Below are positions 4,162 through 62,849 of a DNA stretch of 64,000 bases, in pieces (the stretch's first letter is position 1; every line of letters starts with the position of its first letter). This DNA comes from Nitzschia sp. pyKryTriq1 (taxonomy: Eukaryota; Bacillariophyta; Bacillariophyceae; Bacillariales; Bacillariaceae). A program made the position numbers and the translations under genes. The notes below the pieces were generated by a model. It was not told where the DNA came from. It made no database searches and was given only the letters and a program-made list of their open reading frames with translations. The stretch spans positions 248,001-312,000 of the forward strand of contig OY101117.1 of NCBI GenBank assembly GCA_956465555.1, read 5' to 3'.

Positions 4162-4737
4162 GATGATTTTGATTTGAAACGACTCGAATCAGCTCTTTCT
4201 TAGCTGCCTAGTAGTAGTAGCAGTTCGAGGTAAAATAGTATGTAGTCGAACAATATATACAGGTACAAGCGAGGATGGGATGGTTGTGTGCTGTAGTGGA
4301 TGGGCATTGATGCGAACAAGGATCGCCTACTAGCCTAATGCGCAGGCTGAGTGCTCATGGTCATTATTTTGCTTGGCTTCGGAATACTACGTGCCTGCGT
4401 ATGTAGCACTTCTTTTTGGCTTCGCGATCTTCGCTTTTCCCGCCAGATTACTTTTTGGTATGATACATATTCATACCGGGAACTGCGACGCGACAGACGG
4501 ACGGTCGCGCTTTCATCGCGATCCGATCATCAGACAGGTTCCACTTGGAAGAAGATCAGAGGGAGAAGAAAGCGACGGACATATCACGCGTTCTGAAGAA
4601 TCGCATCGCGCCGCATCTATCTATTCACACCAAAAGACACATCAACAATCAACAACTAATAAAACCGAACGAACAACATGCTCTCCACAACATACACAAT
4701 GGCACTGCATGATTGGTAGATTGATTGGTAGGATACG
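4162..4737. promoter_or_regulatory. shared upstream region of two divergent genes
   Basis: A 576-bp spacer between the divergent starts at 4161 (minus) and 4738 (plus). It must hold both promoters and 5' leaders. A purine/CA-rich stretch just before 4738 looks like a leader. I see no certain core promoter element. Confidence 0.45.
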
Positions 4738-9826: not shown

Positions 9827-10518
9827 TTGTTCTAATTGCTCTACCGGTAATAGTGACACCAGATAGTGTTCCAATAGAGTGTTGTCGATGGAAACGAGAG
9901 GGGAAATATGAATTCAATGAAGAAGAAGCAAAAAAGGTTAGATCGCGCCAAATGAAGGCGAAACCGCGCCCACGCACCACGTTGAATGAATGAGCGGACT
10001 CCAGTTCCAGTCGCGTCAGTGCAATGATGTGGTCGCTGTTTTGTGGGTTCAAGCGTGTTTGAAATGATCTGAGGCTTCCGACTACTCCATGAGGCATATA
10101 TCGTTTGACGTTGCATTCGTGAAAGGAAACCTTCTCGCCACAAAATAGTAGATATCTTTTAAAAAGACATACCTACTACTAGTCATTAATTGGAAAACAT
10201 CAAATATGACTTCAATGAGTAATACTATGACTTCATGAGTGCCAGGGCTATTATAAATCGAATAGAAATACGAGTACAAGAGAGAGGAGAACTTCTTTTG
10301 CTTGTAGTAGAATAAGTACCGCTACTTGGTGGTACAGTACATACTACTAGAGTATAGTGTTGTGATATTACTATAGGTTCATCGCGCGGGCCGCCGCGAA
10401 CCGCATGGTGGAAACTTGTAATGGCAAAAAACAGCAACAGCCGCGGTAGATGAGAAAATATACAGTAACAACCATCATATTTTCCTCCTTCCATTTGTAT
10501 TATTGATTATTATTGATC
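9827..10518. other. spacer between divergent genes
   Basis: Holds the 5' regions of the minus gene ending near 9826-9900 and the plus gene at 10519. I see no further gene. Confidence 0.45.
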
Positions 10519-40309: not shown

Positions 40310-40475
40310 AATAAACCGTTTGATTCCTTATCGCATCACCCGTTTCCGAAACCGCTATATCGTCCCAACGGTTCTTACGATTGTTGTCGGCAAATAAACC
40401 GTTTGATTCCTTATCGCACCACCCGTTTCCGAAACCGCTATATCGTCCCAACGGTTCTTATGATTGTTGTCGGCA
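40310..40475. repeat. 83-bp tandem duplication, two copies
   Basis: Copies at 40310-40392 and 40393-40475 differ at only two positions. They lie just upstream of the element's ORF and start with AATAAACCGTTTG. Confidence 0.95.
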
Positions 40476-40534
40476 AGTCTCGCTCTAATCATTATTTCAC
40501 TGCTCATTTTCTTCCTCGAGAATAATTTTTAATC

Positions 40535-41467: not shown

Positions 41468-42170
41468 AAGGCGCGAAACAGCACGAAAAAGATCCGCCGA
41501 ACGCGCGTATTATGTATGTACTGTATCTCTTCAGACATGCGTACAGTACAAACTAATAAAGGGGGCGTTGAACATCATAAAAATAATTGCAATAGCAAAA
41601 TATGAATAAGGTCGAGATATCGCGTATCGTGGAACTGTTCTCCTCTACTAATTCCCCCTTAGTTATCCGTTAAAAGAGCTGTTTTGCAAGAAACTATAGA
41701 AGCCTACCCCTCACCCCGGTGACTCAATGAAATGTCGACTGGCTCGAATAAGAGCATGATGGTAAAAGGGGATACCCCCCAACTCTAGCCCCCCCCAAGG
41801 CATTAACACCCATAATTGCTCTGCGCTATACCGGTAGTACTTGTACTGTAAGTACTACTGGTACCCTACCAGGTACGTTACCCACGCATCCACCATACTA
41901 CAAGTATTATCCCAGGAAACCAAAAGAATGTGCTGCTATGTTGTTGTTTCGTAAAATACACGTGAATGGAAGTATTTATTATTCTTATACTTTGTCTTTT
42001 ACTTTATCTCTCTAGAGTAGAGTCAAAATGTATTTATGTCAAATAATATGCATGTAGTGCTGTACTCGATACAACGATACACAGATACACCGATGACCGA
42101 TGCAACCGCACGTGGTGATGGCCGCAGCATCTTTTTGGGAATGGTGAATGCTGCGCTGAACAACAACTTC
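41468..42170. other. left flank of the tandem array
   Basis: Homology with the inter-unit spacer begins at about 41573 (CATCATAAAAATAAT). Compared with the equivalent spacers it lacks about 130 bp around 41620 and has many substitutions up to about 41900. No gene. Confidence 0.7.
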
Positions 42171-43368
42171 TTAGATGAGAAGAGCGGCTCCAGCAGCCAA
42201 AGCCGCGGTGGCGGAAACAATCGAATACGAGGATACGTAGACGCAACCAGAGTCGTCCGTGGCAAACGTAACCTTGGCAACAAGCTCGGAGGTACCTGGT
42301 TCGCTGCTTCCGTTTTGTTCAAGTTCTTGAGTGTTTTGGAGTCCACGAAGTGCGCGAAGAGCTCCAAAATCGTTGCTGGCATCACGATGGTGGACAGTGA
42401 TTTTGACATAGATTGTTGCATAGTCGAAGATGACGACGGGGACGGATTTCAAAGTGATGGTCACGGACGTAGTCTTGGGTCCAGCTGGAACGGAGGAGGT
42501 ATCAGATTCTTGGGTGGACTCGACAGCTAAGTTGGGCCATTCGTATTGGTCAGCGACGAAAGTCGCATCCGAAGAGGCAATGATGTTATCGGTCGTTACC
42601 ACCCAAATGGAGTGGTCTCCCCCACTGACAGTGGCAGAAAGAACAATATCTGCACCAAAGGCAACGTTCGATGAAGTTGCGGCAAGTGTGATAGTAGGAT
42701 TAGCAGATGTAACAGAACCATTTCCCTCGGAATCATCTTGTTGTGCACCAGCTTGAAAACTGCCAGCGGAAGTGGCAGCGTCACCGTTTGCTGTCGAGAT
42801 TTCCACGGAGGATGCGATACCTGCGACATTCACCTTGAAGGTGTAGTTCACTTCGTCCATTTTCACGTCAGTGCCTGAATTTCGGTACCACAAGATACAT
42901 TTGACGACCACGTTGTAATCTTGGACGCTTGGGACGTCGGTATCTCTGGGAAGCGCGATAGTGAAGTGAGTAGCGTCGGTAACCGTGATGTCGTTGGTTG
43001 CATCTGTTGCGCCGTAGAAGGCGTCTCCGTTAGCTCCACTCGCAATCGAATAGTCAAGCCAAGCCGTGTTATCGGCTGGAGCGTTTACAGCGTTACCAAA
43101 GTCCGAGACGTATTGTATGCCGATATCGAGTGGCATCCCGTACTCATCGGCATCGTTGATGGTGATCTCACTAAGGGTTTCAGTAAGCTAAGGAACAGAA
43201 GAAGATGACGCGATTGTTGTTAGGGACACCGCTGTTTGGGTTTATTCAAAGGACAACGAAAGATTGTTGATCGATGGGCTTACGTACCTGAGTTGCTCCA
43301 AGAGCTTCATGAATGGCACCGAGGCACATGGCCAGTAGGAACAAAGGCTGAGAAGTGAAAAGCTTCAT
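42171..43368 (-). CDS. array family member A1: secreted, probably GPI-anchored beta-rich protein
   Basis: Exon 1 (43288-43368) encodes the signal peptide M-K-L-F-T-S-Q-P-L-F-L-L-A-M-C-L-G-A ending E-A-L-G-A-T-Q. A 100-bp phase-0 intron (donor GTACGT, acceptor TTAG) follows. Exon 2 (42171-43187) opens with L-T-E-T-L-S-E-I-T. The spliced product has 365 residues. The ectodomain is rich in Thr, Ser, Val and Asp with alternating hydrophobic pattern, suggesting two beta-sandwich-like halves. Landmarks are I-Q-Y-V-S-D-F-G, C-I-L-W-Y, M-D-E-V-N-Y-T-F, F-G-A-D-I-V-L, Y-E-W-P, T-I-Y-V-K-I-T-V-H-H-R-D, then R-A-L-R-G-L-Q with R-x-L matches. The end, A-K-V-T-F-A-T-D-D-S-G-C followed by a hydrophobic tail A-A-L-A-A-G-A-A-L-L-I, fits a GPI signal. 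I do not recognise the family. Confidence 0.9.
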
Positions 43369-45614
43369 GTTCTTTGTTTGAGACGAGGCGGGGTTTTGTG
43401 GGTGTAAAGGAAGTACTGTAGTATTGAAGACTGATGCGGTTGCTGTTTTGCAATCTGTAGATTTTGATTTTATGAGAAGATTGATCGGGTTGGGTTTTGA
43501 TTTTTTGCACTTTGGACGAGGACGGGCCCTGCCGGAAATCAGGTGTCGAGGAACAACAACAAACCCCCGAACGGAGATCCTCTCAAAGACCTCTGTGGTT
43601 CGCCTTTCCTGATCCACGTACATAGGGACAATAGAAATTGAGACTACAAGTACTACTACAGTACTAACTGGAGAATCCAGAAGGGGGTTAGTTGTTAGAC
43701 TACTAGCGGTAGTTTCAAGGCTCGCCGCAGGTTGGGTTCGGTTTTTTGAATGGGCTCCTTTTCAGGGCGGAATGACCTTCGATTTTGCTGCTACTATACT
43801 ACCGCAGTACTCGTAAACCTTGTTGGTTTTTCGAATCAGAACAGGATGGAGTTCATGACCTCGAGTCGAAAGATTATAGCCCCTTGATAGCTATGAATAC
43901 CGAGGAAGGGCCTTATGCAAATTGAGATCTCCGGATCTCCAAATTAAAGCTCCACACGCTTTGGGACCTGTGCGCGTAGTAATAATTATTATTATTGTAC
44001 TCTTATTACTGGTCATAGCGCATAATATGACGAGAGCATTGAGATCTCCGGTTCTCCCGATTTGAGAACTATCGTGATATATATTATTGTACTACTTCTA
44101 ATAGAAAGAGTCATGGTCTTTGCGATCCTCCTCGATACGGTAGGTGCTCTGAGATCCCTGGTTCTCCAGAGGTGACATTTCCAAAGAACAACTGATCATG
44201 GACGATAAAGATTGCGATCATGATGATTCCAAACGGTTCGTCGAAGTAGGTCTACTAGTAGTAGTAGATCTCTGGGTCGCCTACTAAGTTCTACTCCGTG
44301 ACAATTTCTCCGCAGATCTCTTTCTTTCCCAAATAATTATTGTACTCGTCTAAGCATGGATACCGTAGCAGCTGCATGGGCCTTTTGCAATCCGAAGCCA
44401 TTATGGGATCGATTCAGTGCGCTGAGATTTCTGGTTCTCCACCAGATAGAGTTGACATATATATATTTTCGAAAGAATGATATTCGCAGATGATAAAGTG
44501 GGGATTCCAAATCATTCCTCATCAGAATAGGAAGATCTCGGGATCGCCGCCTATTCGTATTGTTTTCCTTGGAATTTATACGAATGCCGGTCCTGTATTC
44601 CTGCTGCTCCAGCAATGACCCCGTGGAATAAGAAGGTAAACAAGATAGGGCCTTTGCAAGACAAGAACCATGTCCATGTCAGTTCGAGGAGAAGGACGGC
44701 TTCCTCGCCCCCCTCTAACATGCCCCCACTTGGGGAAGAACGACCTTCACAGTACTAGTAGTCAAGGTGGTGGTATTAGTTTGCCTTACCTAGTAGTACT
44801 AGCTAGACTAAGAATACTAAGAATGCACCCTCTAGTAGTAGGACTACTACTAGTTGATCTCTGGATCGCCTACTAAGTTAATGTTCTTTTTCTTTCTAAT
44901 TGACCAGCACCAATACCAATACCGCCAAGGCGTCCATCTCTAGTAAAGTGGTGATCGTAACTCGACGACTTCTTGTAGCAGATACTAGTAGGCACTAGTC
45001 CTGGTGCGCTGCCGCGAAGATGATGAGCAGCAGCAGCAGCAGCACCAGCATTCGCAAAAATTTATCTTCTTAGTAGTGTAGTATGAGGAGGTCGTCGTCG
45101 ACCTCGGGCTGTCGCTACTCTAGAGTACGACTACTAGCAAATGGATATTTTTATATTGAAGAGGTAGTACCTATCCAAAGCACGATAACTGTCACCTATA
45201 GTAGACTACTACTAGTAAACGGATATGGCGGAGGCGAAAGAGAGGCCACCAGCTTCGTCGCAAGGGCCCCCAAGAAAGCTAGTATACTAAGCTTCACTTC
45301 ATTTCTTTACATTCTCCACTCGTCCTCTCTCAAGTAGTAGAGTATACTAGTAGAGAGCAGGAGCAGTAAAGTAATATATCATGAGTTCGTAGTTCTCTAA
45401 ATTAATTGATTTTTTATATTCGGACAATGATTGTTATCAAAAGAGGGAACATGATGTCTCTATTCGAATGTGATGCTGCTCTATCTGTCCGTGTTATGGA
45501 GCCCCTGGTAGAGATATTCCTTGTATATCGGATGTGTAATAGTCTATTGGATGGTTGTGCTGGGACGTCGTCGGGGGATGTCCTGGTTGCTTGTTTATGC
45601 TTGTTGTTTCTTTA
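43369..45614. other. A1-B1 spacer with degenerate GAGATCTCCGG repeats
   Basis: Contains related words resembling GAGATCTCCGGTTCTCC at about 43925, 44041, 44151, 44424 and variants (GATCTCTGGGTCGCC) near 44265, 44532 and 44859. Several are followed by AT-rich TATATATTATTGTAC-like stretches. It looks like a decayed tandem repeat. Small frames here, such as 44337-44615, are conserved between units only because the whole DNA is duplicated. A CTAG/GTAC-rich zone spans 44750-45370. Confidence 0.6.
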
Positions 45615-46837
45615 TTAGATGAGAAGAGCAGCAGCAGCTCCAGCAGCCAATGTGGTTGAGGAAACTATCATAAAGGATGAAACTGTGACGCAGCCAGAAT
45701 CATCCGTAGCAAAAGTAACCTTGGCAATCAAATCGGCGGCTCCAGCTGCGGTGACCTCTTCTTGAGGGATGCTGCCGACTTCTTGTTGTTGGAGTCCTCG
45801 AAGGACGCGGCGGGTCGGCATGTCGTTTCTGACATCTCTAAAGTGGACGGTCAATCGGACATAGATAACTCCCCAATTAAAAATATAGACGGGGACAGAT
45901 TTCAAATGAATTGTGACGAGAGTGGTGATGGCCGTCTCGGTGGTAATATCCGCGCTGACCGCAGCGTTGGGCCATTCGTAGTCCTCTGGGTCGGTAAAGG
46001 ACAGGGAATCCTGAGAGGCAATGATATCCTCGTCGGTGTCTACCCACAGGGTATCGGTGGTTCCCTCGACACTTGCCTGCAGAACAATGTCGGCGCCAAA
46101 AGGAATGTCACTTCCTAATTGGGAAATAATAAGAGAGCCGGGCTTCTGCGACACAACACCTCCGGCACTAATTTCATCTTCTTCTTGTGCACCAGCTTGA
46201 AAACTGCCAGCAGAAGAGGCACCGTCACCGTTTGCTGTCGAGACTTCCACGGAGGATGCGGTACCTGCGACATTCACCTTGAAGGTGTAGCTCACTTCGT
46301 CCATTTTCACGTTAGTGCCTGAATTTCGGTACCACAAGATACATTTGACGACCACGTCGTAATCTTGGACGCTTGGGACGTCGGCATCTCTGGGAAGCGC
46401 GATAGTGAAGTGAGTAGCGTCGGTAACCGTGATATGGGTTCCTGTAGTCGAACCGTAGAAGGCGGCTCCGTTAGCTCCACTGTCAATCGAATACTCAAGC
46501 CAAGCCTTGTTATCGGTTTCAACGTTTACAGCGTCACCAAAGTCCGAGACGTATTTTAGTTCGATCTTGGTTGGCATCCCGTACTCATCGGCAGTGACGA
46601 TGTTAATATCAGTAAGGGTTTCGGTGAGCTATACGTAGAGAAAAATCATTATCGGACAAGGGTTTAGAAGAAATTAATCAATCTGGCTGGTAGGACCATC
46701 GACACCTGCACGGCTGGTCGTGATCCATCATGCGTATTACGTACTTGCGTCTCTCCAAGACTTTCGTGCACAGTGCAGAGGCAGATTGCCAATAAGAGGG
46801 CTGGCCAGCAGGACTTGTTCAAAGTGAAAATCTTCAT
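45615..46837 (-). CDS. array family member B1
   Basis: Exon 1 (46745-46837) encodes M-K-I-F-T-L-N-K-S-C-W-P-A-L-L-L-A and ends S-L-G-E-T-Q. The intron is 116 bp (46629-46744, donor GTACGT, acceptor ATAG, phase 0). Exon 2 is 45615-46628; the product has 368 residues. I chose the start at 46837 over an in-frame Met 13 codons upstream because it gives a clean signal peptide. It is closely related to A over the first half (F-T-I-A-L-P-R-D, V-P-S-V-Q-D-Y-D-V-V-V-K-C) and more diverged in the second (P-F-G-A-D-I-V-L-Q-A-S-V-E-G). The basic site reads T-R-R-V-L-R-G-L-Q. Like A, it has Cys in the C-I-L-W-Y strand and in D-D-S-G-C. Confidence 0.9.
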
Positions 46838-48044
46838 TGTTGTTTTAGAGGATGAGTGCTCCACAAGTCGGCGCAAGGAGGATCATAAATTTTCGTTTTG
46901 TTTTCAAATGCTTTGATCGCGGATATTGTGTTTCGTTTTTATGGATACTACACTGGCGAGTGGCGAGGCGAGCGGTGACGCCATGAGGCCCTGCACATTC
47001 TCACTACTCGCGTAACCCGAACGCGGTCGCACCGCACCGGTACATCGACTTCTCATTTTTATTCTACGAGTTAGGTTGCGTGCTCGCGAGTGGGGGTTGA
47101 CGTAGAATTCTACACGTGCAGTACCAGGACGCACAATCGAATTGGTCAATCGCGCCGAACGCCCGCCATTCGCCTCATGACGACATTGAGAGAAGCGCGG
47201 CAACAAAACACAACACATGCATCATCCATTCAGTCATTCAGAACCTCAAATAATGGGTGCTTTTTCTCGTGCTTCATGATATAGTAATAATGCGTGCTTT
47301 TTCTCGTGCTTCACGACATCATAAAAATAATAGCAATAGCAATATCAATAAGGTCGAGATGGTTCTAAGCGCTATCGCGTATTATTGTTGATGATACTAA
47401 TATTTCTGACCACTACGGTAGAAGCACGCGTTATTTTCATCATGACTCTACTAGCGCTATCGCATACTATTATTATTATTATTATTATTCTACTAGCGCT
47501 ATCGCGTATCGTGGAACTGTTCTCCTCTACTAATTCCCCCTTAGTTATGCGTTAAAAGAGCTGTTTTGCAAGAAACTATAGAAGCCTACCCCTCACCCCG
47601 GTGACTCAATGAAATGTCGACTGACTCGAATAAGAGCATGATGGTAAAAGGGGATACCCCCAACTCTAGCCCCCCCAAGGCATTTACACCCAATTGCTCT
47701 GCGCTATACCGGTAGTACGTGTACTGTAAGCACTACCCTACCATAGGTACGTTACGCACGCATCCACCATACTACAAGTATTATCCCAGGAAACCAAAAG
47801 AATGTGCTGCTATGTTGTTGTTTCGTAAAATACACGTGAATGGAAGTATTTATTATTCTTATACTTTGTCTTTTACTTTATCTCTCTAGAGTAGAGTCAA
47901 AATGTATTTATGTCAAATAATATGCATGTAGTGCTGTACTCGATACAACGATACACAGATACACCGATGACCGATGCAACCGCACGTGGTGATGGCCGCA
48001 GCATCTTTTTGGGAATGGTGAATGCTGCGCTGAACAACAACTTC
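46838..48044. other. inter-unit spacer B1-A2
   Basis: Contains three copies of a word close to CTAGCGCTATCGCGTA (about 47370-47505) separated by ATT-triplet and other AT-rich DNA. The first unit lacks this block, so it marks a likely deletion or expansion site. No gene. Confidence 0.6.
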
Positions 48045-49242
48045 TTAGATGAGAAGAGCGGCTCCAGCAGCCAAAGCCGCGGTGGCGGAAACAATCGAAT
48101 ACGAGGATACGTAGACGCAACCAGAGTCGTCCGTGGCAAACGTAACCTTGGCAACAAGCTCGGAGGTACCTGGTTCGCTGCTTCCGTTTTGTTCAAGTTC
48201 TTGAGTGTTTTGGAGTCCACGAAGTGCGCGAAGAGCTCCAAAATCGTTGCTGGCATCACGATGGTGGACAGTGATTTTGACATAGATTGTTGCATAGTCG
48301 AAGATGACGACGGGGACGGATTTCAAAGTGATGGTCACGGACGTAGTCTTGGGTCCAGCTGGAACGGAGGAGGTATCAGATTCTTGGGTGGACTCGACAG
48401 CTAAGTTGGGCCATTCGTATTGGTCAGCGACGAAAGTCGCATCCGAAGAGGCAATGATGTTATCGGTCGTTACCACCCAAATGGAGTGGTCTCCCCCACT
48501 GACAGTGGCAGAAAGAACAATATCTGCACCAAAGGCAACGTTCGATGAAGTTGCGGCAAGTGTGATAGTAGGATTAGCAGATGTAACAGAACCATTTCCC
48601 TCGGAATCATCTTGTTGTGCACCAGCTTGAAAACTGCCAGCGGAAGTGGCAGCGTCACCGTTTGCTGTCGAGATTTCCACGGAGGATGCGATACCTGCGA
48701 CATTCACCTTGAAGGTGTAGTTCACTTCGTCCATTTTCACGTCAGTGCCTGAATTTCGGTACCACAAGATACATTTGACGACCACGTTGTAATCTTGGAC
48801 GCTTGGGACGTCGGTATCTCTGGGAAGCGCGATAGTGAAGTGAGTAGCGTCGGTAACCGTGATGTCGTTGGTTGCATCTGTTGCGCCGTAGAAGGCGTCT
48901 CCGTTAGCTCCACTCGCAATCGAATAGTCAAGCCAAGCCGTGTTATCGGCTGGAGCGTTTACAGCGTTACCAAAGTCCGAGACGTATTGTATGCCGATAT
49001 CGAGTGGCATCCCGTACTCATCGGCATCGTTGATGGTGATCTCACTAAGGGTTTCAGTAAGCTAAGGAACAGAAGAAGATGACGCGATTGTTGTTAGGGA
49101 CACCGCTGTTTGGGTTTATTCAAAGGACAACGAAAGATTGTTGATCGATGGGCTTACGTACCTGAGTTGCTCCAAGAGCTTCATGAATGGCACCGAGGCA
49201 CATGGCCAGTAGGAACAAAGGCTGAGAAGTGAAAAGCTTCAT
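48045..49242 (-). CDS. array family member A2 (copy of A1)
   Basis: Exon 1 49162-49242, intron 49062-49161, exon 2 48045-49061. The encoded protein is identical to A1, and by eye the nucleotide sequence is too, intron included. All splice sites and the stop are intact, so the copy should be functional if transcribed. Identity extends through the flanking spacer, so regulation is presumably the same. Confidence 0.9.
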
Positions 49243-51488
49243 GTTCTTTGTTTGAGACGAGGCGGGGTTTTGTGGGTGTAAAGGAAGTACTGTAGTATTG
49301 AAGACTGATGCGGTTGCTGTTTTGCAATCTGTAGATTTTGATTTTATGAGAAGATTGATCGGGTTGGGTTTTGATTTTTTGCACTTTGGACGAGGACGGG
49401 CCCTGCCGGAAATCAGGTGTCGAGGAACAACAACAAACCCCCGAACGGAGATCCTCTCAAAGACCTCTGTGGTTCGCCTTTCCTGATCCACGTACATAGG
49501 GACAATAGAAATTGAGACTACAAGTACTACTACAGTACTAACTGGAGAATCCAGAAGGGGGTTAGTTGTTAGACTACTAGCGGTAGTTTCAAGGCTCGCC
49601 GCAGGTTGGGTTCGGTTTTTTGAATGGGCTCCTTTTCAGGGCGGAATGACCTTCGATTTTGCTGCTACTATACTACCGCAGTACTCGTAAACCTTGTTGG
49701 TTTTTCGAATCAGAACAGGATGGAGTTCATGACCTCGAGTCGAAAGATTATAGCCCCTTGATAGCTATGAATACCGAGGAAGGGCCTTATGCAAATTGAG
49801 ATCTCCGGATCTCCAAATTAAAGCTCCACACGCTTTGGGACCTGTGCGCGTAGTAATAATTATTATAATTGTACTCTTATTACTGGTCATAGCGCATAAT
49901 ATGACGAGAGCATTGAGATCTCCGGTTCTCCCGATTTGAGAACTATCGTGATATATATTATTGTACTACTTCTAATAGAAAGAGTCATGGTCTTTGCGAT
50001 CCTCCTCGATACGGTAGGTGCTCTGAGATCCCTGGTTCTCCAGAGGTGACATTTCCAAAGAACAACTGATCATGGACGATAAAGATTGCGATCATGATGA
50101 TTCCAAACGGTTCGTCGAAGTAGGTCTACTAGTAGTAGTAGATCTCTGGGTCGCCTACTAAGTTCTACTCCGTGACAATTTCTCCGCAGATCTCTTTCTT
50201 TCCCAAATAATTATTGTACTCGTCTAAGCATGGATACCGTAGCAGCTGCATGGGCCTTTTGCAATCCGAAGCCATTATGGGATCGATTCAGTGCGCTGAG
50301 ATTTCTGGTTCTCCACCAGATAGAGTTGACATATATATATTTTCGAAAGAATGATATTCGCAGATGATAAAGTGGGGATTCCAAATCATTCCTCATCAGA
50401 ATAGGAAGATCTCGGGATCGCCGCCTATTCGTATTGTTTTCCTTGGAATTTATACGAATGCCGGTCCTGTATTCCTGCTGCTCCAGCAATGACCCCGTGG
50501 AATAAGAAGGTAAACAAGATAGGGCCTTTGCAAGACAAGAACCATGTCCATGTCAGTTCGAGGAGAAGGACGGCTTCCTCGCCCCCCTCTAACATGCCCC
50601 CACTTGGGGAAGAACGACCTTCACAGTACTAGTAGTCAAGGTGGTGGTATTAGTTTGCCTTACCTAGTAGTACTAGCTAGACTAAGAATACTAAGAATGC
50701 ACCCTCTAGTAGTAGGACTACTACTAGTTGATCTCTGGATCGCCTACTAAGTTAATGTTCTTTTTCTTTCTAATTGACCAGCACCAATACCAATACCGCC
50801 AAGGCGTCCATCTCTAGTAAAGTGGTGATCGTAACTCGACGACTTCTTGTAGCAGATACTAGTAGGCACTAGTCCTGGTGCGCTGCCGCGAAGATGATGA
50901 GCAGCAGCAGCAGCAGCACCAGCATTCGCAAAAATTTATCTTCTTAGTAGTGTAGTATGAGGAGGTCGTCGTCGACCTCGGGCTGTCGCTACTCTAGAGT
51001 ACGACTACTAGCAAATGGATATTTTTATATTGAAGAGGTAGTACCTATCCAAAGCACGATAACTGTCACCTATAGTAGACTACTACTAGTAAACGGATAT
51101 GGCGGAGGCGAAAGAGAGGCCACCAGCTTCGTCGCAAGGGCCCCCAAGAAAGCTAGTATACTAAGCTTCACTTCATTTCTTTACATTCTCCACTCGTCCT
51201 CTCTCAAGTAGTAGAGTATACTAGTAGAGAGCAGGAGCAGTAAAGTAATATATCATGAGTTCGTAGTTCTCTAAATTAATTGATTTTTTATATTCGGACA
51301 ATGATTGTTATCAAAAGAGGGAACATGATGTCTCTATTCGAATGTGATGCTGCTCTATCTGTCCGTGTTATGGAGCCCCTGGTAGAGATATTCCTTGTAT
51401 ATCGGATGTGTAATAGTCTATTGGATGGTTGTGCTGGGACGTCGTCGGGGGATGTCCTGGTTGCTTGTTTATGCTTGTTGTTTCTTTA
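49243..51488. other. A2-B2 spacer
   Basis: Near-identical copy of the A1-B1 spacer, including the degenerate GAGATCTCC repeats. One visible difference is ATTATAATTGTAC in place of ATTATTATTGTAC near 49861. Confidence 0.6.
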
Positions 51489-52711
51489 TTAGATGAGAAG
51501 AGCAGCAGCAGCTCCAGCAGCCAATGTGGTTGAGGAAACTATCATAAAGGATGAAACTGTGACGCAGCCAGAATCATCCGTAGCAAAAGTAACCTTGGCA
51601 ATCAAATCGGCGGCTCCAGCTGCGGTGACCTCTTCTTGAGGGATGCTGCCGACTTCTTGTTGTTGGAGTCCTCGAAGGACGCGGCGGGTCGGCATGTCGT
51701 TTCTGACATCTCTAAAGTGGACGGTCAATCGGACATAGATAACTCCCCAATTAAAAATATAGACGGGGACAGATTTCAAATGAATTGTGACGAGAGTGGT
51801 GATGGCCGTCTCGGTGGTAATATCCGCGCTGACCGCAGCGTTGGGCCATTCGTAGTCCTCTGGGTCGGTAAAGGACAGGGAATCCTGAGAGGCAATGATA
51901 TCCTCGTCGGTGTCTACCCACAGGGTATCGGTGGTTCCCTCGACACTTGCCTGCAGAACAATGTCGGCGCCAAAAGGAATGTCACTTCCTAATTGGGAAA
52001 TAATAAGAGAGCCGGGCTTCTGCGACACAACACCTCCGGCACTAATTTCATCTTCTTCTTGTGCACCAGCTTGAAAACTGCCAGCAGAAGAGGCACCGTC
52101 ACCGTTTGCTGTCGAGACTTCCACGGAGGATGCGGTACCTGCGACATTCACCTTGAAGGTGTAGCTCACTTCGTCCATTTTCACGTTAGTGCCTGAATTT
52201 CGGTACCACAAGATACATTTGACGACCACGTCGTAATCTTGGACGCTTGGGACGTCGGCATCTCTGGGAAGCGCGATAGTGAAGTGAGTAGCGTCGGTAA
52301 CCGTGATATGGGTTCCTGTAGTCGAACCGTAGAAGGCGGCTCCGTTAGCTCCACTGTCAATCGAATACTCAAGCCAAGCCTTGTTATCGGTTTCAACGTT
52401 TACAGCGTCACCAAAGTCCGAGACGTATTTTAGTTCGATCTTGGTTGGCATCCCGTACTCATCGGCAGTGACGATGTTAATATCAGTAAGGGTTTCGGTG
52501 AGCTATACGTAGAGAAAAATCATTATCGGACAAGGGTTTAGAAGAAATTAATCAATCTGGCTGGTAGGACCATCGACACCTGCACGGCTGGTCGTGATCC
52601 ATCATGCGTATTACGTACTTGCGTCTCTCCAAGACTTTCGTGCACAGTGCAGAGGCAGATTGCCAATAAGAGGGCTGGCCAGCAGGACTTGTTCAAAGTG
52701 AAAATCTTCAT
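51489..52711 (-). CDS. array family member B2 (copy of B1)
   Basis: Exon 1 52619-52711, intron 52503-52618, exon 2 51489-52502. The protein is identical to B1. Together with A2 it forms the second complete A-B pair. Confidence 0.9.
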
Positions 52712-53921
52712 TGTTGTTTTAGAGGATGAGTGCTCCACAAGTCGGCGCAAGGAGGATCATAAATTTTCGTTTTGTTTTCAAATGCTTTGATCGCGGATAT
52801 TGTGTTTCGTTTTTATGGATACTACACTGGCGACGAGTGGCGAGGCGAGCGGTGACGCCATGAGGCCCTGCACATTCTCACTACTCGCGTAACCCGAACG
52901 CGGTCGCACCGCACCGGTACATCGACTTCTCATTTTTATTCTACGAGTTAGGTTGCGTGCTCGCGAGTGGGGGTTGACGTAGAATTCTACACGTGCAGTA
53001 CCAGGACGCACAATCGAATTGGTCAATCGCGCCGAACGCCCGCCATTCGCCTCATGACGACATTGAGAGAAGCGCGGCAACAAAACACAACACATGCATC
53101 ATCCATTCAGTCATTCAGAACCTCAAATAATGGGTGCTTTTTCTCGTGCTTCATGATATAGTAATAATGCGTGCTTTTTCTCGTGCTTCACGACATCATA
53201 AAAATAATAGCAATAGCAATATCAATAAGGTCGAGATGGTTCTAAGCGCTATCGCGTATTATTGTTGATGATACTAATATTTCTGACCACTACGGTAGAA
53301 GCACGCGTTATTTTCATCATGACTCTACTAGCGCTATCGCATACTATTATTATTATTATTATTATTCTACTAGCGCTATCGCGTATCGTGGAACTGTTCT
53401 CCTCTACTAATTCCCCCTTAGTTATGCGTTAAAAGAGCTGTTTTGCAAGAAACTATAGAAGCCTACCCCTCACCCCGGTGACTCAATGAAATGTCGACTG
53501 ACTCGAATAAGAGCATGATGGTAAAAGGGGATACCCCCAACTCTAGCCCCCCCAAGGCATTTACACCCAATTGCTCTGCGCTATACCGGTAGTACGTGTA
53601 CTGTAAGCACTACCCTACCATAGGTACGTTACGCACGCATCCACCATACTACAAGTATTATCCCAGGAAACCAAAAGAATGTGCTGCTATGTTGTTGTTT
53701 CGTAAAATACACGTGAATGGAAGTATTTATTATTCTTATACTTTGTCTTTTACTTTATCTCTCTAGAGTAGAGTCAAAATGTATTTATGTCAAATAATAT
53801 GCATGTAGTGCTGTACTCGATACAACGATACACAGATACACCGATGACCGATGCAACCGCACGTGGTGATGGCCGCAGCATCTTTTTGGGAATGGTGAAT
53901 GCTGCGCTGAACAACAACTTC
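52712..53921. other. inter-unit spacer B2-A3
   Basis: Copy of the B1-A2 spacer with a 3-bp insertion near 52834. Contains the same triple CTAGCGCTATCGC block. No gene. Confidence 0.6.
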
Positions 53922-56575
53922 TTAGATGAGAAGAGCGGCTCCAGCAGCCAAAGCCGCGGTGGCGGAAACAATCGAATACGAGGATACGTAGACGCAACCA
54001 GAGTCGTCCGTGGCAAACGTAACCTTGGCAACAAGCTCGGAGGTACCTGGTTCGCTGCTTCCGTTTTGTTCAAGTTCTTGAGTGTTTTGGAGTCCACGAA
54101 GTGCGCGAAGAGCTCCAAAATCGTTGCTGGCATCACGATGGTGGACAGTGATTTTGACATAGATTGTTGCATAGTCGAAGATGACGACGGGGACGGATTT
54201 CAAAGTGATGGTCACGGACGTAGTCTTGGGTCCAGCTGGAACGGAGGAGGTATCAGATTCTTGGGTGGACTCGACAGCTAAGTTGGGCCATTCGTATTGG
54301 TCAGCGACGAAAGTCGCATCCGAAGAGGCAATGATGTTATCGGTCGTTACCACCCAAATGGAGTGGTCTCCCCCACTGACAGTGGCAGAAAGAACAATAT
54401 CTGCACCAAAGGCAACGTTCGATGAAGTTGCGGCAAGTGTGATAGTAGGATTAGCAGATGTAACAGAACCATTTCCCTCGGAATCATCTTGTTGTGCACC
54501 AGCTTGAAAACTGCCAGCGGAAGTGGCAGCGTCACCGTTTGCTGTCGAGATTTCCACGGAGGATGCGATACCTGCGACATTCACCTTGAAGGTGTAGTTC
54601 ACTTCGTCCATTTTCACGTCAGTGCCTGAATTTCGGTACCACAAGATACATTTGACGACCACGTTGTAATCTTGGACGCTTGGGACGTCGGTATCTCTGG
54701 GAAGCGCGATAGTGAAGTGAGTAGCGTCGGTAACCGTGATGTCGTTGGTTGCATCTGTTGCGCCGTAGAAGGCGTCTCCGTTAGCTCCACTCGCAATCGA
54801 ATAGTCAAGCCAAGCCGTGTTATCGGCTGGAGCGTTTACAGCGTTACCAAAGTCCGAGACGTATTGTATGCCGATATCGAGTGGCATCCCGTACTCATCG
54901 GCATCGTTGATGGTGATCTCACTAAGGGTTTCAGTAAGCTAAGGAACAGAAGAAGATGACGCGATTGTTGTTAGGGACACCGCTGTTTGGGTTTATTCAA
55001 AGGACAACGAAAGATTGTTGATCGATGGGCTTACGTACCTGAGTTGCTCCAAGAGCTTCATGAATGGCACCGAGGCACATGGCCAGTAGGAACAAAGGCT
55101 GAGAAGTGAAAAGCTTCATGTTCTTTGTTTGAGACGAGGCGGGGTTTTGTGGGTGTAAAGGAAGTACTGTAGTATTGAAGACTGATGCGGTTGCTGTTTT
55201 GCAATCTGTAGATTTTGATTTTATGAGAAGATTGATCGGGTTGGGTTTTGATTTTTTGCACTTTGGACGAGGACGGGCCCTGCCGGAAATCAGGTGTCGA
55301 GGAACAACAACAAACCCCCGAACGGAGATCCTCTCAAAGACCTCTGTGGTTCGCCTTTCCTGATCCACGTACATAGGGACAATAGAAATTGAGACTACAA
55401 GTACTACTACAGTACTAACTGGAGAATCCAGAAGGGGGTTAGTTGTTAGACTACTAGCGGTAGTTTCAAGGCTCGCCGCAGGTTGGGTTCGGTTTTTTGA
55501 ATGGGCTCCTTTTCAGGGCGGAATGACCTTCGATTTTGCTGCTACTATACTACCGCAGTACTCGTAAACCTTGTTGGTTTTTCGAATCAGAACAGGATGG
55601 AGTTCATGACCTCGAGTCGAAAGATTATAGCCCCTTGATAGCTATGAATACCGAGGAAGGGCCTTATGCAAATTGAGATCTCCGGATCTCCAAATTAAAG
55701 CTCCACACGCTTTGGGACCTGTGCGCGTAGTAATAATTATTATTATTGTACTCTTATTACTGGTCATAGCGCATAATATGACGAGAGCATTGAGATCTCC
55801 GGTTCTTCCGATTTGAGAACTATCGTGATATATATTATTGTACTACTTCTAATAGAAAGAGTCATGGTCTTTGCGATCCTCCCCGATACGGTAGGTGCTC
55901 TGAGATCCCTGGTTCTCCAGAGGTGACATTTCCAAAGAACAACTGATCATGGACGATAAAGATTGCGATCATGATGATTCCAAACGGTTCGTCGAAGTAG
56001 GTCTACTAGTAGTAGTAGATCTCTGGATCGCCTACTAAGTTCAACTCCGTGACAATTTCTCCGCAGGTCTCTTTCTTTCCCAAATAATTATTGTACTCGT
56101 CTAAGCATGGATACCGTAGCAGCTGCATGGGCCTTTTGCAATCCGAAGCCATTATGGGATCGATTCAGTGCGCTGAGATTTCTGGTTCTCCACCACCAGG
56201 TAGAGTTGACATATATATATTTTCGAAAGAATGATATTCGCAGATGATAAAGTGGGGATTCCAAATCATTCCTCATCAGAATAGGAAGATCTCGGGATCG
56301 CCGCCTATTCGTATTGTTTTCCTTGGAATTTATACGAATGCCGGTCCTGTATTCCTGCTGCTCCAGCAATGACCCCGTGGAATAAGAAGGTAAACAAGAT
56401 AGGGCCTTTGCAAGACAAGAACCATGTCCATGTCAGTTCGAGGAGAAGGACGGCTTCCTCGCCCCCCTCTAACATACCCCCACTTGGGGAAGAACGACCT
56501 TCACAGTACTAGTAGTAAAGGTGGTGGTATTAGTTTGCCCTACCTAGTAGTAGTACTAGACTAAGAATGCACCAT
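53194..56575. repeat. tandem array unit 3, partial (gene A3 only)
   Basis: Matches units 1 and 2 until about 56575, with substitutions becoming frequent from about 55800 on. It then breaks into unrelated sequence before the B gene would start. The position of a B gene is taken by the diverged member C. Confidence 0.95.
53922..55119 (-). CDS. array family member A3 (copy of A1)
   Basis: Exon 1 55039-55119, intron 54939-55038, exon 2 53922-54938. The protein is identical to A1 and A2. It is the last near-identical copy; its upstream spacer is the part of the array that starts to diverge. Confidence 0.9.
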
Positions 56576-56968
56576 GGAATTGGTGCTCCATGCACCAAGC
56601 TTTGCTACTCCTTACGTTGACCGGCAAGAAGACTCCGGAACTATCCCTCTTGAGTACTAGACAATGCTAATTGTAGTGTCGACAGCTTAATCTTCGCCTT
56701 CTAGAGTAGTAGAAAACCAATTTCCACGAATTCATTCGAAAAGAAATGGCGATGTTTGGTCTTGGATCAAGCTTTCTAGAGGACGTAGTTTTGTATCTCG
56801 GTTAGGCCTGGCGCCCGAGTTTTTTTGATTCAATCTATTGTGTTCGTTCTCAATCAAGAGAGGAGTCTTCGATGTGCTAGCCACAGCTGGGGGAGTTTGA
56901 TCCTTTTGCTTCGAGGAGCGCCCGCAAGCAGATCGCTAACGATTTTATATACCAACTTTCCTGGGCCT
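55120..56968. other. A3-C spacer, right edge of the array
   Basis: Follows the unit sequence to about 56575 with a rising number of substitutions (for example near 55806, 55882, 56029 and 56195, the last a 3-bp insertion). Then it is unique sequence. No gene is supported. Confidence 0.6.
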
Positions 56969-58148
56969 TTAGAGAAGGAAAAGTGCTCCAGTAGCTAATA
57001 TCGAGGTAGAAGCTAGCATGGACGATGATATCGAAACGGACCCAGAATTATCCGTAGCAAAAGTGACCTTTGCAAAAAGTTGGGCTGACCCTTCTTCTCC
57101 ACCAGCAGACGAGCCGGATGAGCTACTATCGTCTTGAAGTCCGCGGCGGAGGGTACGGACACGACGCAAATCGTTCGTGATGTCTCTAAAGTGCACCGGC
57201 ACTTGGATGTAGATAGTCCCCAGATCAAAGAGAATAATGGGAACAGCTTTCAAAGTAATGGTGACGGTTGTTGTTTTTGTCGGACTGGTATCAGTAGATA
57301 CCGACGAAGTAGCCGTAGTGTCCGGCCACTCGTAATCACCACCTCCAACATCAAAGTCTGTATCGCTAGAAGCTATGATGGTCTCCGTGGGAATGACCCA
57401 AATAGTATGCGAATTGCCACTCACGGTTGCTTCAAGAATAATATCGGCACCTGCAGCGATGTTGCTGCCACTCTGTGACAGTGAGACACTAGGTGTTGCC
57501 GAAAGGATGGATCCGTCTCCCAGGGTATTTTCAGTGATTTCGGCAGCAGTTATACTACCTCCATTGGTAGCGGATCCAACTGCTGTGTCAACAGTTGTCT
57601 CCGCTCCACCGACATGTATATTGAATGTGTATACGATATTGCTGACGATAAATTCCGTCCCGTCGTTGTTGTAGGTTAATACAATATCAAATTCCAAAGT
57701 GTAGTCACCAGCTGAAGGCTCGTTAGTATCTCGGGTAAGGGCAATGCTGAATATCGTAGTACTATCGACCGTCAACGTTCCACCGGTGTAGTAGTCAGCT
57801 CCGTTAGTGGACGACATCGACCATGATAACCACGCCTTGTCGTTTGAAGAAGAATCTACAGCTTGACCCAAATCTGATTCATAGACGATGGAGATACTTG
57901 TCGGCATCCCAAAAATATCTTCAGTATTTATGGTCACATCGTTTGGATCCTCAGTGAGCTGCAAGGAAACGAACGAAGAGGAACGGGCAGTTTGAGCACA
58001 TCACGTAAATACGCGGCAGATCGTCACAAGCATGAATAATATTGATCTCTCGCACCTTGGTGGCTCCATAACTCCCTTGGAGGCACCCAAGTAGGCAGAT
58101 ACCCAGTGCTAGTAGTTTCCGACGTCTTGATGGGGCAGGGGGGTTCAT
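56969..58148 (-). CDS. array family member C, diverged
   Basis: Exon 1 (58056-58148) encodes M-N-P-P-A-P-S-R-R-R-K-L-L-A-L-G and ends G-S-Y-G-A-T-K. The intron is 97 bp (57959-58055) with an unusual donor GTGCGA and acceptor GCAG. Exon 2 (56969-57958) opens L-T-E-D-P-N-D-V. The product has 360 residues. Family landmarks are kept: I-V-Y-E-S-D-L-G, A-W-L-S-W-S-M, Y-E-W-P, T-I-Y-I-Q-V-P-V-H-F-R-D, R-T-L-R-R-G-L-Q, A-K-V-T-F-A-T-D-N-S-G. The ectodomain strand reads F-D-I-V-L-T-Y with no Cys, and the end has D-N-S-G-S, so the Cys pair of A and B is missing. The position after A3 corresponds to where a B gene would be. Confidence 0.88.
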
Positions 58149-59293
58149 CGTGAAAACGTAACGAGATATTCAGAGTCTTTGGGCGATTGATGATGGAGCC
58201 AATCCGCGGGCATTCGTATATTAATGTACGAATATGATGAGAGAGGGTGCATTGTATGCTGGGGAGATATGCGCTACTACGACGAGAACTTCGTGCTACT
58301 GTATAAATTTGCGAACCCCGCGCTTCGCCCGACGACTTGCGGATATTCCACGGACACGCGTTTAATAGCGTCACGCGTACCGGTATGCGTTTTGGTACCA
58401 TTGAAACATGAGGCGACGTCACGGCAAAAAAGCAAGATCTTCCATCTCGCGGCATCTATTCTAGTGACCGCAATACAATATCCTTGCTACAACATTGCGA
58501 TCATATTATTATGACATGTCAACAATGACAACCCCTCGAATCATCATCATCATCGTAGTTACGCGTTTTCAATGCACCGTATTGAACTTATTTGTTCGAA
58601 GGAAGAAGGAGCGGGCGGAAAAGATTTTGCCTCTTGTTTGCCTGGCGATGAAATATCACGCGTAAAGAAACCTTCTGCTTGGCATCTGCTCGTACCATAC
58701 CGGAAGAAGATCTGGGGTCTCCTCCTACAAGATTGGCTGCCACATGGATAGTATGCCACTGATGACTGCCCTTCACCGCGGTGCGATGTGTTCCCGAACG
58801 AGACTGTAAGTGCTACTATGGTGGCGGTGTCGACTGTCAAGGAATCTAGCAGCCTCAAATAATACTCGGTCCGCAGCATCAGGTGCTGTTTTTCTCGCTC
58901 CATCTTTACAGCATCATCATTATTCTCTTGACCGTGTCTATCGGGGGCTCGAACGATCTTATTTCTCATACTAGCCTCCGACCACCAGCACAATGTCTTG
59001 AAGCTTCTCGTTCCCGGATGAGTCGCTGTGGATAGTATGAAGAAAGATGGACGACAAATTGGGCAAAGAAGCCAATCAATCAACTTTCGTTTTAATCTAG
59101 TTGGTCTACCATAGATGAAAAAACCAACAATATGATACTACACAATCACTGAATTTATGTTTTAACGCAGTGCGAACATGATGCATGATGGAGAAAATCG
59201 GAAAGAGCAGCCATCGAAACGACAACTCACCATACAAGATCTGGCTGACAGTCGACTTTATTATTTTCCTTGGTTACTGACTGCCCCTCTCCT
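58149..59293. other. C-D spacer
   Basis: About 1.1 kb. A 174-codon minus-strand frame at 58559-59083 has no recognisable content or signal peptide, so I do not call it a gene. Confidence 0.5.
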
Positions 59294-60498
59294 CTAAATT
59301 AAAAGGGCCGCCCCCGCACCTACTGCTGTGGTTGATATTATCGTAAAGACGGATGTCGCAACGGAGCCTGAATCGACAGCACGACCAAAAGTAACCTTGC
59401 CGACAATGTCTACGGCGCCCCCCTCCCTGGCAAGCACGGCAGTATGCCCACCCTCCAAACTGCGACGAAGAGCACGGCGGGTGCCAAAATCATGGCTGAT
59501 ATCTCGATAGTGGACCGTCAATCGGATGTAGATAGTTTGCAAATCGAAAACTTCCACTGGGACGGATTTCAAATGGATTGTGACAGTACTTTGGGTGCCC
59601 GTCTCACTGGTGACATCGGAGGCGACCGCCGGCTTGGGCCACTCGTAGTCACTTTCGTCGAAGGTCGTATCACCAGAGGCAATGACGGGATCGGTAGGAA
59701 CTACCCAAAGGGTGTGCGTACCACTTGCAGTTGTTGCAAGAAGGATAACATCCGAACCAACGGCGACATTGCTACCCGATTGTGCAAGCGATATGCTCGG
59801 TGCGGCAGAAACAACAGATCCGTTGCCTACCGAGTTCTCGGTTATACTTGGAGCGTTGAAGCTTCCCCCCGTAGTTGCTCCGCTTCCCGTGGAGACTATC
59901 GTGGACGAAGCGGCACCAGCAATTTTCACGTTGAACGTGTAGTCAACCTCGTCCATCTTGAAATCGGTTTCAGCAGTATGGTACCACAGCTTGATATTCA
60001 GCACAATGGCATAGTCGCCCACTACTGGAGCTGCGCCACTTCGGGTGAGAGCAATGCTGAATTGGGTTGTACTGTCGACAGTCAATGCGCCTGGAGGGGA
60101 GCCAGTGTAATACGCGTTGCCATTGGTCATGGACCACTCAACCCAAACTTTGCCGGAGGCTGACGATGTTACAGCCTGGCCAAAGTCACATATATATTGT
60201 ATGCTGATATCGGTCGGCATCGCAAAACTATCCTCCGCAGTAACGGATATCTCCCCAGTATCTTTTGTGAGCTTTAAACAAGAACGATTTGGAAAACAAA
60301 ACACAATGAAAACATCACAAGCACGTTAGAATACAGCCGAGAAGAGAACTATAAAAGAGTTTGGGTTGTCGAGTATCGAGGCCACCGAAATAATGTCGAT
60401 TGATTCCTATTACCTACCTGTGTTGCTCCAAGACTATCGCGGATAGCGACGAGGCAGATAACCAGCCAAAGCATATTGATAATAAGAAACGCCATCAT
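59294..60498 (-). CDS. array family member D, diverged
   Basis: Exon 1 (60418-60498) encodes M-M-A-F-L-I-I-N-M-L-W-L-V-I-C-L-V and ends S-L-G-A-T-Q. The intron is 146 bp (60272-60417, donor GTAGGT, acceptor AAAG), the longest in the family. Exon 2 (59294-60271) opens L-T-K-D-T-G-E-I. The product has 352 residues. Landmarks: I-Q-Y-I-C-D-F-G-Q-A-V, F-K-M-D-E-V-D-Y-T-F, V-G-S-D-V-I-L, Y-E-W-P, T-I-Y-I-R-L-T-V-H-Y-R-D, then R-R-A-L-R-R-S-L. The pre-anchor region is shorter than in A and B and reads D-S-G-S. There is one Cys in the mature part. Confidence 0.88.
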
Positions 60499-61593
60499 GA
60501 AAATTTGGTGATGGAGGTACGTTGTTAGGAGTCGGCCGATGCAACAAGTTTCATTTGAAGAAATTCGTCTGATGAGAATTGTGAGAACCACTTCTTTTTT
60601 TAAAAATAAAAAAGGATTGTGAGATTTGCGGTTCGCCTATCAGTAGCGCAACCAGTCCCATCAACTGTGGTTCTTCCATCAACAATGAGAAACCGCTGCA
60701 CTCTCAAGAAGGCCAAAGGGCTTATGCGACGCGAATTCTAAACTTAATAGAGTAGTTCTTTGCAAGCTAATACTCCGAACATCCAACATCTGGGCAGATA
60801 AAAATAAGAGTTGGTCCAAGCAAGCAGCCAAGAAAGTAGTCCCAAAGACTAAAAACTGTATTAATACGTTCGTCGAAGCTTCGATTTTGTTCCTGCGCTG
60901 GCACATCGGTTTTGTTCTTTCTCATCCAACAAGAAAGGGCTTGTATTTTGCTGGTCCATCATACCGCATATTTAGGAAGGTTCTTTCGACGCCCTTCGCG
61001 ATCATCATGGGTCTTGGTTCGGGCGAATTGGCGATGCGATCCTTCAATCTCAACGTTCGCCGCGCACCTGGTGGTGGTCTTGCTCTCTACTACTAGCTAG
61101 AGTAGCTCTAGCAGTAGCTGGTAGTACGAATAGAGGTACAACGCTACTACTAGCTCTTAGTAGTAGAGACTAGTATATCGTAGAGCAGCGAAACTCTTAG
61201 AACGGTAGCTACTAGTAGAGGCGAAGAGCAGTTTCGCGTACTACTAGTAGTAATGGAGTAGCGAGGTCGTGCTGTTTCCACGACTGCCACAAAGAAATTT
61301 TCTATGCGAAAGCTTCTGTTCTGGTGGTTCGGAATTATTTTAATTGACGAGGAGATTTTTATGAGAAGTCTCGTCGATCTTATGTATCGAAGCGCCATGC
61401 CGACTACTCTCTCCTCATTCATGATCCTCAGCATGAAAGAATCATGATAAGTTGTTGAAACTATCATATTTGAAGTCGCATGAAGCAGCGGGTTTAGTCG
61501 TCAAACGCCGTAGCGGCCTTCCGCTAGTTGACTGAGTGAGAAGTAGTCTTTGACTACCCATGGTGGTTGCTGTCGCAGTAAAGACGTTCTTTA
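60499..61593. other. D-E spacer
   Basis: About 1.1 kb. Dense CTAG/TAC-rich DNA spans 61080-61260. Short frames near 60890-61100 have no recognisable content. Confidence 0.5.
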
Positions 61594-62849
61594 CTAGATC
61601 AGTAGAGCAGCGCCAGCCGCCAATGCTGTCGTAGCGGAGACGACCATGAAGGACGAAACAATAGTAGAACCAGAATCATCAGTAGCAAAAGTAACTTTGG
61701 CGACAAATCGAGCGGAACCGTCTTCCATCTCGTTCCCGGTAGTTTCTTGGGATCCGGTGGAATCATCACCCGTACGAGTACCGACATCGCGGAATATGCT
61801 ACCGTCTTCAAGTCCACGAAGGAAGCGACGGGTGCGGCGCGCATCGTTGCTGTTGTCTCTAAAGTGCACGGTCAGTTGGACATAGATAGTTCCGAGTTCA
61901 AAAATTGCCACAGGGATAGATTTCAAATTGACTGTGACGGTGGTTGTTGTCGTTGGACTTGAATCGGCAGAAACCGAGGAAGTAACCGCAGTATTAGGCC
62001 ATTCGTAGTCCAATTCGTCGGCGAAATTCAAATTCGCGGAGGCAATGATATTTTCAGTGGGATCCACCCAAAGCGTGTGAGAACTGCTTCCAGTAGTCGC
62101 CTCGAGGACAATGTCAGTACCAAACGCAACATTGCTTCCCGTTTGAGCAAGTGTGATAGTTGGAGTGGGCGAAGTTATCTCCCCGATTCCGACATCAGTT
62201 TCTTCGACAGTGGGAACGCTGAATGACCCACTTGTAGTGGCTCCGGTTGTCGTATGAACCAAGGTGGAGCCGGGGGCACCAGCAATATTCACAATGAATG
62301 TGTAGTCAACCTCGTCCATCTGGAATTCTTGGCCACCATTGTTATACCATAATTTGACTTTGATACCGATCATATAGTCTCCAACCCCAGTGGGATCTAC
62401 GCCACTTCGGGCCAAGGTCAGGGTGAATTGTGTTGCGCTCTGTACCGTCAAGGTACCTGGAGTGGCCTCGTAGTATGTGTCCCCATTTATCATGGACCAC
62501 TCAAGCCAAGCCTTGCCTTGGGATGTTGCCGTTTCGGCTTGCCCAAAATCTGACACATAGTCGATTGTGATAGTTGTCGGCATGCCGAAAGAACCATCCG
62601 TTGCGGTGACCGCAACCTCGTTGGCAGCATCTTTCGTAAGCTAAAAGAAGACGACAATAAAAACGGTGAGACAGGTAAAATGCCGCTCGTTAAAGATCTG
62701 CAGTTGGCGTTGTTCTTTCAAACGCACCGAAAGAACGTGCTCGTCCGTACCTGTGTTGCTCCAAGGGTCTCGTCAAACAAAGCTCCGAAAAAGAGAGCAA
62801 GTACTAGGATTATGCAATGGCGAGAAGTTGGAAAATTCATCATTGTCAT
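61594..62849 (-). CDS. array family member E, diverged
   Basis: Exon 1 (62751-62849) encodes a signal peptide with core C-I-I-L-V-L-A-L-F-F-G-A-L-F, ending T-L-G-A-T-Q. Met codons at 62849, 62843 and 62840 are all possible starts. The intron is 110 bp (62641-62750, donor GTACGG, acceptor TTAG). Exon 2 (61594-62640) opens L-T-K-D-A-A-N-E-V. The product has 381 residues, the longest member, because of an extended region after the basic site (R-R-F-L-R-G-L-E-D-G, then a Thr/Gly/Asp-rich stretch). Other landmarks: V-S-D-F-G-Q-A, F-Q-M-D-E-V-D-Y-T-F, F-G-T-D-I-V-L, Y-E-W-P, T-I-Y-V-Q-L-T-V-H-F-R-D, A-K-V-T-F-A-T-D-D-S-G-S. There is no Cys in the mature part. Confidence 0.88.

Follow-up and report, generated by a model that had tools for sequence, protein, structure and literature searches.

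Silaffins, cingulins, silacidins, and frustulins carry an RxL motif (PMC4557024), and published accounts treat this motif as a potential or likely site of processing in proteins associated with silica (PMC4557024, PMC5647440, PMC5525289), although proof that it acts in the processing of precursors is still awaited (PMC5647440); these statements and the other published comparisons below are drawn from excerpts of the cited papers. For Sin1, a cut has been proposed between the luminal domain and the membrane helix, after which the luminal part would enter the silica (PMC5525289), and TpSAP3 loses its cytoplasmic part while its luminal part is kept in silica (PMC5647440). Among animal zona pellucida (ZP) modules, the ZP-C domain of betaglycan holds a helix and a proteolysis point in its FG loop (residues 711 to 746) and an external hydrophobic patch on strand G (residues 745 to 757) (PMC3695229). 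Uromodulin is made as a glycosylphosphatidylinositol (GPI)-anchored precursor and released by a protease; its last strand is part of a propeptide that blocks polymerization, and a neighbor's linker fills the gap that this strand leaves (PMC7737619). Here, we describe a gene family that forms an array in a 64,000-nucleotide (nt) stretch of DNA (the window; positions 248001-312000 of contig OY101117.1, here C3) of the diatom Nitzschia sp. pyKryTriq1 (GCA_956465555.1; 40.65 Mb in 20 contigs). Its products may be tethered precursors in which an RxL site precedes the last strand of a ZP-like pair of immunoglobulin (Ig)-like domains.

The array consists of the following genes (window coordinates):

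43368-42171, minus strand: A1, with exon 1 at 43368-43288, intron at 43287-43188, and exon 2 at 43187-42171; 365 aa
46837-45615, minus strand: B1, with exon 1 at 46837-46745, intron at 46744-46629, and exon 2 at 46628-45615; 368 aa
49242-48045, minus strand: A2, with exon 1 at 49242-49162, intron at 49161-49062, and exon 2 at 49061-48045; protein identical to A1
52711-51489, minus strand: B2, with exon 1 at 52711-52619, intron at 52618-52503, and exon 2 at 52502-51489; protein identical to B1
55119-53922, minus strand: A3, with exon 1 at 55119-55039, intron at 55038-54939, and exon 2 at 54938-53922; protein identical to A1
58148-56969, minus strand: C, with exon 1 at 58148-58056, intron at 58055-57959, and exon 2 at 57958-56969; 360 aa
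60498-59294, minus strand: D, with exon 1 at 60498-60418, intron at 60417-60272, and exon 2 at 60271-59294; 352 aa
62849-61594, minus strand: E, with exon 1 at 62849-62751, intron at 62750-62641, and exon 2 at 62640-61594; 381 aa

All eight gene models share one layout, in which a short first exon (81 to 99 nt) is followed by a phase-0 GT-AG intron (97 to 146 nt) and a single exon of ~1 kb that is free of internal stops. The first-pass annotation, made from the DNA alone, had described eight same-strand genes with a signal-like exon, a single beta-rich ectodomain exon, an RxL site, and a GPI-like tail, and this description held for the diatom array. Its statement that exon 1 ends in GATQ or a close variant was exact for most genes, the endings being GETQ in B and GATK in C. 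Judging from sequence and hydropathy, the products are probably secreted and membrane-tethered, with an N-terminal signal peptide and, at the hydrophobic tail where the proteins end, a C-terminal GPI signal.

Since the distinct array proteins share 41 to 60% identity (BLASTP E values of 8e-71 or better), their resemblance reflects homology rather than chance, and by this measure the array is a real, well-conserved gene family. Given that the three A proteins are identical, as are the two B proteins, the "row of eight" reported initially stands as a count of gene copies but corresponds to five distinct proteins, and a ninth member lies elsewhere in the genome:

C16:987830-989022 (stop codon excluded): F, with a GATQ exon end and a phase-0 intron of 128 nt

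When the exon-2 proteins of D, C, and F were used to search the genome, each returned at least the eight array places and this one place on C16. Two further places found with the D query were taken as chance matches, one on C9 (E = 0.0175) inside a 1,300-aa frame in which no family marks were seen by eye and one on C11 (E = 0.997) with one stop. A DNA pattern search was uninformative, giving 8 matches, none inside the array, versus 11 in the reversed control.

We tallied the motifs across the nine known genes of the genome. The cluster R-x(1,2)-L-R-x(1,2)-L, a silaffin-type RxL motif, was present in all nine, against a background of 2 matches in 12,875 aa (34 stop-to-stop frames of ≥150 aa on both strands of window positions 1-41500, taken regardless of gene status). 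YEWP was found in eight genes (YIWP in F) and AKVTF in seven (GKVTF in D, AKVDF in F), whereas TIYxxxxVHxRD, which had likewise been listed as a shared mark, occurred in only six and was missing from B1, B2, and F. Exon 2 encodes two cysteines in A and in B, one in D, and none in C, E, or F, and none is common to all.

Comparing predicted structures of A (model 1) and D (model 2) with known folds, one of the checks that had been suggested for this locus, pointed to two folded Ig-like sandwiches in the ectodomain (D model), with domain 2 predicted to be a ZP-C-like Ig sandwich. Among the matches listed, ZP-C chains led the best non-ZP match by 2.3 Z in model 1; in model 2, the leads were 1.9 and 1.2 Z. 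The elements of interest in domain 2 are as follows:

42339-42356, minus strand: A1 RxL site R-A-L-R-G-L, exon-2 residues 278-283, in a loop predicted to carry a helix and to precede the last strand
42264-42296, minus strand: final strand predicted for domain 2 of A1, residues 298-308, holding AKVTF
59456-59479, minus strand: D RxL site R-R-A-L-R-R-S-L, exon-2 residues 265-272, in a predicted helix
59387-59419, minus strand: final strand predicted for domain 2 of D, residues 285-295, holding GKVTF

Both models predict a helix over the RxL site (residues 273-282 in A and 262-274 in D), with a low predicted local distance difference test (pLDDT) score, and a strand at KVTF (pLDDT of 43 to 63). 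Since the alignment of model 1 to 4ajv ends at model residue 309 and 4ajv residue 757 (end points only), the KVTF strand (residues 298-308) would fall at strand G. All eight array genes, but not F, have a cleavage-like motif before the last strand, the motif being read from the sequence and its place from the models. This predicted order resembles that of the ZP modules of betaglycan (TGFBR3), endoglin, and uromodulin, in which two Ig-like sandwiches occur in the same order, the predicted domain 2 being nearest to ZP-C, and a helix-bearing loop with a cleavage site is followed by a hydrophobic last strand and a C-terminal membrane anchor.

When the ZP layout, the uromodulin precedent, and the diatom RXL precedents are combined, they suggest a mechanism whose secretion, anchoring, cleavage, release, and assembly steps we infer. 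A secreted precursor would be tethered to the membrane by its C-terminal GPI-type signal and would display two Ig-like sandwiches, joined by a Gly/Ser/Thr-rich linker and ordered like a ZP module. In domain 2, a diatom RxL protease would cut the loop that connects the final two strands, so that the conserved last strand (K-V-T-F) remained behind with the anchor. The released ectodomain, one strand short, would then join the wall or a surface matrix, perhaps taking a strand from a neighbor as in uromodulin. The joint reading (ZP-like order, RxL cut before the last strand, and entry of the freed ectodomain into the wall or surface matrix) is tentative, and we regard it as possible rather than probable. 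The layout resembles that of animal proteins that form coats and filaments, and assembly would follow by analogy only. The ZP-like hypothesis for the array family is of moderate strength; a wall or silica role is unproven.

Several observations weigh against this mechanism. The loop and the last strand on which it turns are the low-confidence part of both models. Unlike animal ZP modules, the array proteins and F share no conserved disulfide cysteines, and no Pfam ZP match was obtained for any of the six members searched; we therefore do not class the family as a ZP module. Some animal ZP-C domains have lost particular disulfides, although none lacking all of them is described in the part of that source used here (PMC7456536). 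The array family also differs in its diatom host and in having RxL where animal ZP modules carry a cleavage site of their own. Moreover, the TpSAP3 precedent sheds a cytoplasmic part rather than an anchor (PMC5647440).

F raises a further difficulty. It is without most of the interdomain linker, and its alignment to D shows that its RxL cassette, with an acidic tail, sits in an insertion, which according to the D model falls between strands 2 and 3 of domain 2 rather than before the last strand. A cut at this position would be predicted to leave the last strand unfreed. The extra stretch has possible GT/AG ends and could be an unspliced intron, but we provisionally take it as coding because, when translated, it is similar to the A loop that bears RxL, and the stretch ends purine-rich. 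The likeness to the A loop was strongest (score of 41, reached by 0 of 2,000 shuffles), that to the other loops was weaker for B, D, and C (reached by 6, 7, and 65 of 2,000 shuffles, respectively), and no likeness was apparent for E (679 of 2,000). Because the BC and FG loops of an Ig sandwich share one end of the fold, the RxL site of F may have stayed at the same sandwich tip as in the array proteins if the models are correct.

The family could instead comprise GPI-anchored surface proteins that serve in adhesion or recognition and have two Ig-like domains of the ordinary kind, in which case the ZP-C likeness would be that of one Ig fold to another and an RxL cut, if any, would shed the ectodomain. 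Antibodies, T-cell receptors, and other Ig proteins are indeed numerous among the structural matches listed, and a homogenized domain 1 in A and B, with replacements near the silent rate (see below), could fit a weakly constrained surface. On the other hand, ZP-C chains rank above the best non-ZP match in both models, and the conserved strand between the basic site and the anchor is needed by a ZP layout but not by a plain Ig domain; we take this alternative seriously without thinking it probable. At the bolder end, the array may encode a disulfide-free ZP-type polymerization module of diatoms, convergent with that of animals or far older than animals, in which an RxL protease frees a blocking strand, filaments form by strand exchange, and tandem duplication with domain-wise gene conversion diversifies the set, a proposal that we think rather unlikely.

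A silica-based explanation, in which Sin1- or SAP-style proteins of the silica deposition vesicle or frustule are tethered, processed at RxL, and buried in silica by their luminal part with no strand exchange, draws on the host being a diatom and on the RxL sites described in biosilica-associated proteins, which the first-pass annotation had cited in agreement with the literature as summarized above. The kinship with silaffins that it had also suggested was not supported as worded, since silaffins, cingulins, and silacidins are predicted to be random coil (PMC5525289), whereas the array family has two predicted folded domains in place of a repetitive or random-coil mature peptide, and a single RxL cluster. 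Sin1 likewise has a signal peptide, an RxL element, a membrane anchor, and a luminal domain, but its RXL domain lies no more than ~30 residues from the signal peptide, and it features an NQ-rich domain in which 18 cysteines are conserved (compared with zero to two cysteines per exon 2 here), a transmembrane helix, and a cytosolic tail (PMC5525289). TpSAP1-3 share the signal peptide, RxL sites, anchor, and reported cleavage (of the TpSAP3 cytoplasmic part) but differ in their serine-rich regions, transmembrane domain, and conserved cytoplasmic domain (PMC5647440), none of which was seen in the array proteins, which stop at the hydrophobic tail. The array family thus lacks the silaffin, Sin1, and SAP features tested except RxL. 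With no serine-rich or NQ-rich region and no SAP- or Sin1-like cytoplasmic tail seen in the sequences, we consider the silica-based explanation decidedly unlikely.

The first-pass annotation had called the family unrecognized, and it had no convincing match in the sequence libraries searched. With six members, the best Pfam matches were DUF3762 (E = 0.0071) and GD_AH_C (E = 0.031), each in one member and below curated cutoffs; the best NCBIfam (0.014) and PHROGs (0.019) matches were likewise confined to one member and unconvincing, and PDB sequences gave no notable match (best E of 0.67). On these searches, membership in a known sequence family was rejected. No Pfam ZP family, including Zona_pellucida (PF00100), matched any of the six members up to an E of 10, in a search whose filters drop most matches above ~0.1, and a genome-wide PF00100 search was uninformative, as no control genome gave a signal. 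None of 207 IMG/VR pattern matches was confirmed as a relative, a viral fold search gave nothing at an E of ≤0.001, and an internal duplication relating domains 1 and 2 was not supported (hhalign probability of 0.2%, E = 0.37). Among the openly licensed papers that our searches listed, we found no account of the array family or of a diatom ZP module; the excerpts pairing algae with "zona pellucida" were irrelevant on inspection, and those of a paper on diatom sex were without the terms sought.

Part of the array consists of near-identical units of ~5.88 kb:

41618-47499: tandem-duplication unit 1, with genes A1 and B1
47500-53376: tandem-duplication unit 2, with genes A2 and B2
53377-56568: partial tandem-duplication unit 3, with gene A3

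The copies are 99.6% (9,080 columns) and 99.0% (3,203 columns) identical. Units 1 and 2 differ by 7 substitutions and 6 indels and units 2 and 3 by 11 substitutions and 3 indels, and every difference (13/13 and 14/14, respectively) lies outside the genes, clustered near unit edges. Because of this clustering, gene conversion or unequal crossing over fits the noncoding-only differences as well as selection does, and we dropped selection as a claim. Between A and B, the silent difference is 0.10 in domain 1 and 0.58 in domain 2; at the sequence level, domain 1 has been homogenized and domain 2 has not. A 462-column stretch with 89% DNA identity (42732-43190 versus 46176-46631, minus strand) spans domain 1 and much of the linker, excludes domain 2, and is likely a conversion tract. 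The nonsynonymous-to-synonymous ratio (pN/pS) in A/B domain 1 was about 1.2 to 1.3 (bootstrap of 0.72 to 2.65, residues 1-152), and binomial tests did not demonstrate positive selection (P = 0.47 over residues 1-125; P = 0.28 over residues 1-152).

The copy number could be partly an assembly artifact, with haplotypes or repeats placed in tandem and fewer real genes, as the 99.0 to 99.6% identity of the units, the identical coding sequence compared, and pairs of equal-score light-harvesting matches on C1 and C3 that hint at duplicated stretches elsewhere might suggest. However, each of the three units carries distinct differences, and C, D, E, and F are clearly separate genes; an artifact, which we consider very unlikely, would bear on copy number and leave the family itself untouched.

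Outside the low-coordinate end of the array lies an 84-bp direct repeat (40310-40476, plus strand; 97.6% identity). Past the window end (C3:311000-320900), similar open frames at local positions 4712-6649 and 9170-9901 (plus strand) both hold FTRSIGPKADVAELEYVAALHQTC and, by their sequence, are a further local duplication. Elsewhere in the window are an assembly gap of 200 N (15113-15312), a subtilisin-family protease gene with an I9 propeptide and a PA domain (19067-21346, plus strand; ~21 kb from the array), and two neighboring hybrid histidine kinase genes (24442-26766 and 27916-30153, minus strand), which have HisKA, HATPase, and receiver domains in addition to weak PAS matches. Genome-wide, the silicon-transporter family gave eight matches, seven of them nearly full length, and the chlorophyll-binding family gave 72, a count that includes fragments of split genes. 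Two pairs of equal-score chlorophyll-binding matches (C1, ~4.28-4.32 Mb; C3, ~3.14-3.19 Mb) suggest either a segmental duplication or that the assembly contains haplotype copies. Of two light-harvesting proteins compared with PDB sequences, one was closest to fucoxanthin chlorophyll a/c-binding proteins, entries which we take to be from diatoms, and the other to a chain named only LHCI-11. Together, these gene families mark the host as a diatom.

Should the ZP likeness fail, the family would still offer a small group of candidate surface proteins of diatoms. If it is true, the range of protease-triggered strand exchange would include a silica-walled alga. Under the proposed mechanism, if correct, the diatom RxL site would have a concrete role beyond peptide trimming, namely, the release of a membrane-tethered, folded structural protein.
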